A DNA stretch of 64,000 bases from Hypomesus transpacificus. Taxonomy: Eukaryota; Chordata; Actinopteri; Osmeriformes; Osmeridae. A model generated the notes under the pieces. That model made no database searches. It saw only the letters and a list, made by a program, of their open reading frames with translations, and had not been told where the DNA came from. This document shows, one piece after another, positions 53,601-56,600 of this stretch. How positions within the stretch are numbered: position 1 is the first letter of the stretch; each line of letters opens with the position of its first letter. A program made the position numbers and the translations under genes. The stretch covers positions 6,508,777 to 6,572,776 of the forward strand of contig NC_061081.1 in assembly GCF_021917145.1 (NCBI RefSeq), given 5' to 3'.

Positions 53601-56600
53601 TTCTCCAACTGTCCACTAGGCCGCAGCAGCACCTACGGCCATACAGAGTGAGATGAGAGCAATGAGAAGAAACAGGCATTTCAAGACTGGAGGTCTTAGG
53701 AGGCCAAGCAGTACCACCCCATGTCTTAGAACTGGTGTGTGTGTGTGTAAATGTACATCTCTGCATCACTCTGCCATGGCGTTTGATGTGGTTTCGATGT
53801 GTGTGTCCCTTCTCCTACCCTCTTTATCCTGCCCCCCTAGAGCTGCAGCCCTGGAGCAGTTTAAGTCCCTGGGGGCGGAGCCTCTGGAGGTGGACTGTGA
53901 GGAGTCTGGGGAGGGCCAGGGGGGCTATGCCAAGGAGATGTCCAAGGAGTTCATCGAGGCTGAGATGAAGCTGTTTGCCAAGCAGTGCACGGAGGTGGAC
54001 ATCCTTATCAGCACGGCACTCATCCCTGGTGAGGACACACACACACTCCACACACACAAACACTTCCATTCTTTGACCCAGTTGGTGTCGATAACATGAC
54101 CCTCTCTACCTCCGCTAAGATCTAGGATCAATCATGTCTGGTAGGTCTTGCAAAAGGGACATTCACTCAGGGTTTGACCTGTGTGTGTGTGTGTGTGCGT
54201 GCGTGTGTGTGTGTGTGTGCAGGTCGCCGGGCGCCCATCCTGATAACCAAGGACATGGTTGAGACCATGAAGGATGGCTCTGTGGTGGTGGACCTGGCAG
54301 CCGAGGCTGGGGGGAACATAGAGACCACCGTACCTGGGGAGCTGTCTGTACACCAGGTAACCAGGGCTGTTTGGTAGTCTGTACACCAGGTAACCAGGGC
54401 TGGTTGGTAGTCTGTACACCAGGTAACCAGGGCTGTTTGGTAGTCTGTACACCAGGTAACCAGGGCTGGTTGGTAGTCTGTACACCAGGTAACCAGGGCT
54501 GTTTGGTAGTCTGTACACCAGGTAACCAGGGCTGGTTGGTAGTCTGTACACCAGGTAACCAGGGCTGTCAGGTAGTCTGGACACCAGGCAACCAGGGCTG
54601 TTTGGTAGTCTGGACACCAGGTAACCAGGGATGTTTGGTAGTCTGGACACCAGGTAACCAGGGCTGTTTGGTAGTCTCTACACCAAGTAACCAGGGCTGT
54701 TTGGTAGTCTGTACACCAGGTAACCAGGGCTGTTTGGTAGTCTGTACACCAGGTAACCAGGGCTGTTTGGTAGTCTGGACACCAGGTAACCAGGGCTGTT
54801 TGCTAGTCTGGACACCAGGTAACCAGGGCTGTTTGGTAGTCTGGACACCAGGTAACCAGGGCTGTTTGGTAGTCTGTATACAGGGTAACCAGGGCTGTTA
54901 GGTAGTCTGGACACCAGGTAACCAGGGCTGTTTGGTAGTCTAGACACCAGGTAACCAGGGCTGTTATGTAGTCTGAACACCAGGTAACCAGGGCTGTTTG
55001 GTAGTCTGGACACCAGGTAACCAGGGCTGTCAGGTAGTCTAGACACCAGGTAACCAGGGCTGTTTGGTAGTCTAGACACCAGGTAACCAGGGCTGTTTGG
55101 TAGTCTGGACACCAGGTAACCAGGGCTGTTTGGTAGTCTGGACACCAGGTAACCAGGGCTGTTTGGTAGTCTGTACACCAGGTAACCAGGGCTGTTTGGT
55201 AGTCTGGACACAAGGTGACCAGGTAAACCAGGTTGTAGCTGCCTGTACACCAGATTAACAGTGTAACCTGGGGTGGGTGGTGTGTGTGTGTTCCAGGGTG
55301 TGACCCACATAGGCTACACTGACCTGCCCAGCCGCCTGCCCACCCAGTCCAGCACCTTGTACTCCAACAACGTGATCAAGCTGATCCGAGCCATCTCCCC
55401 AGACAAGGACAACTTCTACTTTGACGTCAAGGAGCAGTTTGACTACGGGACCATGGACCACGTGGTGCGGGGGTCCATCGTCATGCAGGTACCACACGCG
55501 CGCCCCCGGAGGCCCCCATGGCCGTGGCGTCTACACCACGGGTGCTACATCCTAGGACGGGGCACGCGATGGGAATAAGAGGTCAACAAGAGGAGGTCAA
55601 GAGAGAAATGTTTGTATGATTCATTTGATAGGATAGTCTTGGTAACAGCTGGACTTATTTAGTCATCACTGCTGTAGTCCTGCTGGTGATTAGGGGTTCT
55701 GTCTCACACACACACACACACACACACACAGAGACAGACAGACACAGACAGAGGTGAGGTAAGGTGTTGTTTAGTAGTGTGTTCTCTGCGTTGTGGGCCA
55801 GGCATGGTGATGGATGGTGGCGTGCCAGGCGTGTGTGTGTGTGTATGCAGTCTGCTGTGAACATGATCCATGAGCCACCAGTGGAACTGCTGATGTGCCT
55901 GTAATAGACACACTATCAAACAGAGCCCTCCTTTGATCTCAGATTGGAATACCTGCTCTGGGTTCACAGTAGCTTGATACCTTTGTGATTTTTCAGATGG
56001 ATTAGTATCTCCCCCTCTTCCTTGTCGTGTCTCCCCCCCCCCCCACCCTGCTGTCTCTTTCAGAACGGTAAGAACCTGTTCCCGGCCCCCCAGCCCAACA
56101 ACATCCCCGTGGCCGCCCCCCCCAAGCCTCCCAGTGTGCAGGAGCTGCAGAAGGCCAAGGCAGCGGCCGTGTCCCCCTTCAAGGCCACCCTCACCACGGC
56201 CGGCATGTACACTGGAGGTGAGCCCCCTCCACACACACACACACTCACGCGCAATGGTCAGCTCTGTTGTGTTTGACATCTGCTGGGTCAGTGAGGGTCA
56301 CTGTGCTGTCTGTCCTGTCATTTTGTATTTTATATTGTATTTTATATTGTAATTTGTCAACTTATATTTTATGCCCACTTTTAATTCCTTGTCAGTGCAA
56401 ACTTTCATGGCGAATAAATCCCGTTCTGATTCTGATTCTGTCCCCCAGGTTTCACCACTCTGCTGGGTCTGGGCCTGGCCGCGCCCAACGCCGCCTTCAC
56501 CCAGATGGTCACCACCTTCGGCCTGGCGGGCATCGTGGGCTACCACACCGTCTGGGGGGTGACCCCCGCTCTGCACTCCCCTCTCATGTCTGTCACCAAC

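Follow-up and report, generated by a model that had tools for sequence, protein, structure and literature searches.

The window analysed here, a 64,000-nt stretch of the Hypomesus transpacificus genome (NC_061081.1, forward-strand positions 6,508,777 to 6,572,776), carries in its nnt gene a 33-bp minisatellite that begins inside a coding exon and repeats the exon end together with its 5' splice site (donor). This array is most probably a tolerated minisatellite of the 'mirage' type, derived from a duplication across the exon end. The duplication would have been short and in tandem, spanning the 3' boundary of a pre-existing nnt exon and thereby placing copies of its tail and donor in the intron; these would then have multiplied via slippage or unequal exchange, the latest of them beside the exon. 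The array would persist because its first copy retains the real exon end and donor, leaving normal splicing and the protein unaltered. The later donors would be near-neutral decoys: splicing at one of them would bring in a TAG stop and probably lead to nonsense-mediated decay.

Anatomy and history of the nnt array

The nnt exons were identified from ~51.8 kb of the window onward, and the intron and exon numbers are provisional. When the two exons flanking the array were joined, the resulting peptide matched ovine NNT (6qti, E 8.9e-53) across the junction. The exon, its donor and the next exon are therefore unbroken, as at the intact boundary of a mirage. The features are as follows, with a slash marking the exon–intron boundary.

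54222..54356, plus strand: nnt coding exon (labelled E7, number provisional) ending in ...GAG CTG TCT GTA CAC CAG (ELSVHQ), from the joined-peptide match to NNT
54344..54356, plus strand: exonic part of unit 1 (GTCTGTACACCAG), from unit cutting and exon mapping
54344..55223, plus strand: 33-bp minisatellite, with CAG/GTAACC in 23 of 26 full units
54344..54568, plus strand: exon-proximal stretch, in which units 1-6 are one 66-bp dimer occurring three times unchanged (exact match over 159 bases at shift 66)
54357..54362, plus strand: first donor, GTAACC, taken as authentic, with a score of 7.19 on an approximate donor matrix, in the middle of the range of nnt donors
54357..55296, plus strand: nnt intron of 940 nt
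55202..55234, plus strand: edge of the array, including the degenerate unit 27, where AAG/GTGACC and CAG/GTAAAC occur (resulting introns 82 and 74 nt)
55237..55261, plus strand: diverged copy of exon end plus donor, identical at 21 of 25 bases
55297..55488, plus strand: next nnt coding exon, from the joined-peptide match to NNT

Tandem Repeats Finder (TRF) reported the array at 54344-55223, with a period of 33, 26.7 copies, 93% matches and a score of 1508. Cutting it every 33 bases yielded 26 full units, which fall into 13 types, and a degenerate 27th. Columns 1-13 of the unit are the final 13 coding bases of the exon and the remaining 20 are intronic, starting with GTAACC, so that each unit combines sequence from the two sides of a single exon–intron boundary. 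With many tandem units in the size range of ~10-100 bp, the array is a minisatellite, and it makes up 867 nt of the 940-nt intron. A sequence-only reading of this DNA had proposed about 26 copies of a 33-bp unit beginning within the exon, which was borne out together with the start of the array; the end it gave (55230) was 7 bases too long. Its row of about 26 donors, each an exon end plus a 5' splice site, was also recovered: GT was present in 25 of the 26 full units and CAGGTAACC was intact in 23, the deviating donors being those of unit 8 (GC), unit 11 (CAA/GT) and unit 17 (AGG/GT). A search for the exon tail plus donor gave 27 hits in the arrayed intron (≤3 mismatches) and none in the six other nnt introns tested (2-6 and 8). 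An Rfam scan of 51000-58000 gave no match.

The array is authentic, and no sign of an assembly artefact was seen: it lies in a contig of 15.07 Mb, and its units differ from one another. The three identical dimers of units 1-6 could be miscounted by short reads. Nevertheless, the 13 unit types, the degenerate edge and the lack of a nearby gap (the sole N run of the window is 38624-39123) leave very little probability that the array is absent from the genome or its copy number wrong.

Mean pairwise differences were 0.6 among units 1-6, 2.29 among units 7-13 and 2.1 among units 14-26. Since units 1-6 are the most alike, the youngest growth seems to have taken place beside the exon. Behind the array, the copy at 55237-55261 scored higher in alignment with the exon end (30) than with the unit (23), and 30 was reached by 3 of 2000 dinucleotide shuffles. 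This copy may be a remnant of the founding duplication, for which the alignment is only suggestive.

Donor copies and the consequences of their use

All donors were scored with the same approximate matrix. The 7.19 of CAG/GTAACC compares with 3.95-10.95 for 13 other nnt donors, 7 of which were the best GT near an exon end as picked by script, so that some may be wrong. Donors 1-7 were the same in both sequence and score.

Each of the 26 unit junctions carries a TAG in the exon frame. A 33-bp unit leaves the reading frame unchanged from one full unit to the next, and any donor after the first would end the protein a few codons past the exon. Decay of transcripts carrying such a premature stop is expected. 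These stops speak against the suggestion that repeats might be included as coding sequence. Leaky use of donors 2 onwards is possible, and donors 2-4 would lengthen the exon from 135 to 168-234 nt. On the minus strand, long stop-free antisense frames cross the array (window positions 54135-54677 and 54681-55313). They also stay stop-free through it because the unit length is a multiple of three, and there is no evidence that they are genes.

We then compared variation inside and outside the donor. Four of the 15 variant states fell in the donor, which occupies 9 of the 33 columns, and 17 of the 33 circular nine-column windows contained four or fewer variant states. Donor columns thus vary as much as the remainder of the unit, at chance level, and purifying selection on the donors, considered as a candidate, was rejected.

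In the human IFI6/G1P3 (6-16) gene, Turri reportedly described a minisatellite with multiple splice donors in 1995. The IFI6 minisatellite has a 12-bp unit and is sited at an exon end. The nnt units likewise supply multiple donors, and they carry the donor consensus at a mid-range score. By analogy, donors 2-4 of nnt could be regulated alternatives leading to a stop and nonsense-mediated decay, with array length tuning nnt output. The sameness of donors 1-7 would allow this, the extended exon would still be of ordinary size, and in IFI6 two downstream repeat units do serve as donors, according to the portion of the article available (PMC4526556). However, downstream units in IFI6 yield isoforms (PMC4526556, same portion), whereas in nnt the stop at each of the 26 junctions leaves no full-length coding isoform to downstream donors. 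The donor columns also bear no trace of selection, and we consider such regulation unlikely.

The sequence-only reading had also raised a buffer of donors for U1 binding, to which an enhancer of splicing for a weak-acceptor intron may be added. The donor copies are numerous, and among the 12 nnt acceptors scored (50-100% pyrimidines, the arrayed intron's own included) that of the arrayed intron has just 50%. Yet the acceptor of the preceding intron is equally poor (50%) and that intron has no exon-tail copy. As donor columns show no excess conservation, the idea of a preserved buffer was not sustained, and either role is very improbable. An open-access literature search found no paper on U1 occupancy.

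A 12-nt in-frame micro-exon encoding Ser-Val-His-Gln had been proposed as well. Most unit junctions offer the layout it needs, AG followed by 12 nt and GT; the blocks of 12 nt contain no stop in frame, and such a micro-exon would bypass the TAG. The peptide itself held in part: the block reads SVHQ in 10 of 26 units (read by eye) and SGHQ, SRHQ, SEHQ, SLHQ or SVYR in the others. The acceptor contexts in the units are poor: pyrimidines make up 35-45% of them in six units inspected out of 26, compared with 50-100% at the 12 nnt acceptors scored. An exon of 12 nt is also far under ordinary size. Inclusion of micro-exons from some units is therefore scarcely credible.

Several observations weigh against a tolerated array that grew from the exon end and is spliced at its first donor. 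Units one apart differed by 1.92 on average and those farther apart by 1.83-2.29; with similarity hardly tied to distance, the growth history is readable only in units 1-6. The founder status of 55237-55261 stays suggestive because that copy also resembles the unit. The tail donor CAG/GTAAAC after 55222 scored 7.67, slightly above donor 1. Local folding of the 27 donors gave probabilities of being unpaired of 0.000-0.029, all of them low and with nothing to set donor 1 apart, and the idea that donor 1 is specially accessible was rejected. With a slightly stronger tail donor and undiscriminating folding, sequence alone offers no reason for donor 1 winning, and its use in splicing is something we infer. 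The array is a natural test of donor choice, with more than 20 identical donors adjacent to one another and apparently only the first giving full-length protein.

Age of the intron and comparison with known systems

Searches covered the genome to which the window belongs, 437 Mb in 376 contigs. A second nnt copy was found at C19:1986535-1986956 (locus L044, G000:C19:1985035-1988232). In this paralogue the exon likewise has 135 nt and is followed at the same codon by a phase-0 intron, which is 95 nt long and without an array. As the intron is common to both nnt copies, it predates their split, which speaks against its creation by the array. Later addition of the array to the arrayed copy appears more likely than its loss from the paralogue. 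An array-driven Tyr-to-Ser change at the nnt exon end was considered and dropped because this residue position varies anyway, being Tyr in sheep and His in the paralogue.

Intron gain through tandem duplication is the subject of the AGGT model of Rogers, with ATP2A1 as a cited case (PMC3629103, PMC4974935), and has been described from tandem copies in fission yeast (SPOG_01682/SOCG_00815), where the site is named AGGC (PMC3629103); both statements follow the accessible parts of these papers. The nnt intron resembles these cases, as far as those parts describe them, in containing tandem copies of a splice-proximal segment. It differs from them in being older than its array, as judged from the paralogue; the intron was already present in the gene. 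The proposal that the array marks a route to a new intron was accordingly abandoned, and intron gain by tandem duplication at nnt was rejected given the array-free paralogue intron at the same codon.

The nnt array looks like a kind already described in amphioxus (lancelets). Mirage minisatellites occur there in Adh3 and the globin genes BflGb6 and BflGb9 and appear not to interfere with regular splicing (PMC3087553, from the available part of the text, as are the comparisons that follow). The nnt array fits their anatomical definition, a tandem repeat spanning an exon–intron boundary. Amphioxus units measure 10-72 bp in Adh3 and ~150-160 bp in the globins, compared with 26.7 copies of 33 bp in nnt. 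Length instability was shown for BflGb6, which has 6 and 3 units in two haplotypes, while the nnt array is known from one assembly. Fish introns also contain minisatellites, such as those of Sparus GH (PMC3045353), and the nnt array shares that location; the excerpt of the Sparus paper at hand makes no mention of an included exon end, whereas the nnt unit includes one. No fish case of an exon-end minisatellite was found in an open-access literature search, which is not proof of absence.

Exon-end arrays elsewhere in the genome

The 33-bp nnt unit itself was matched only at the nnt locus (counts in this search are lower bounds). We screened the genome for three CAGGTAAG motifs spaced 10-40 bases apart. 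This gave 333 matches, and at least 13 separate arrays were counted by eye among the matches listed (contigs C1 to part of C10). Five of the 13 arrays fetched start at exon ends, four as shown from both exons and the fifth from one exon. They share the design of the nnt array, which favours the mirage reading. The exonic part of their first unit is 11-32 bases long.

L030, G000:C1:2207000-2216999, oriented 4982-7113, minus strand: POLR2B exon-end array, 73.5 copies of 29 bp with 33 CAGGTAAG motifs, most of an intron
L036: MCT10 exon-end array, both exons joined, E 2e-28
L033: UCH/USP-like exon-end array, exon side only, Pfam E 5.1e-7
L037: ZNF512-like exon-end array, both exons joined, E 2.3e-11
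L038: FAM176/EVA1-like exon-end array, both exons joined, E 9e-27

In POLR2B, the 58 typed residues that precede the donor could be aligned in full to RPB2, from which 2 of them differ, and the next exon (VLNRLTF) was found. Single-exon peptides, mostly too short to be searched on their own, gave no Pfam match for POLR2B, MCT10 or L040 and fell below the cut-off for ZNF512 (0.0075) and FAM176 (0.078). A PDB search with such peptides had no match for the USP-like, ZNF512-like and EVA1-like exons, and NCBIfam returned one below-cut-off, irrelevant match. L040 has a long open frame with no family match. Seven of the 13 arrays (L031, L032, L034, L035, L039, L041 and L042) were not shown to be at exon ends. 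L042 carries, at oriented positions 5871-6926, 29.6 copies of a 36-bp unit in an apparent SK-channel intron (the gene being named by eye), ~58 bases past what looks like its donor.

A reversed-pattern control gave 52 matches compared with 333 for CAGGTAAG, which hinted at an enrichment of donor-motif arrays. The permuted motifs CAGGATAG and CAAGGTAG, however, yielded 577 and 134 matches, on either side of the 333, with at least 15 (C1 to C7) and at least 11 (C1 to C9) separate arrays, respectively, by eye among the matches listed. Since permuted motifs give arrays at a similar frequency, no clear excess of donor-motif arrays is left, and the enrichment was dropped. Isolated single copies in 204 kb of gene-rich sequence (9 of CAGGTAAG, 5 of CAGGATAG and 3 of CAAGGTAG) were too few to decide the matter. 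Donor content in an array thus needs no functional reason, which also argues against IFI6-like regulation of nnt. The genome is rich in minisatellites, some of which land on exon ends. If ~200,000 donors are assumed, some 4-5% of them CAGGTAAG, then as a rough estimate ~40% of CAGGTAAG octamers would be real donors, near the 5 of 13 observed.

Exon-end minisatellites could form a recurrent class in many genes (POLR2B with ~73 units), in which copy number tunes donor choice, with leaky use of downstream donors triggering nonsense-mediated decay proportional to array length, but we regard this as quite unlikely. The nnt, POLR2B, MCT10, ZNF512-like, EVA1-like and USP-like arrays could reveal how strict the spliceosome's exon-side donor preference is, and whether arrays of this design are put to use, merely tolerated or purged.

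The window contains further sizeable minisatellites at 45663-46042, 51308-51617, 16003-16444, 21078-21362 and 22291-22591. A 789-codon open frame at 39175-41541, LINE reverse transcriptase-like by eye, follows shortly after the 500-N gap (38624-39123).
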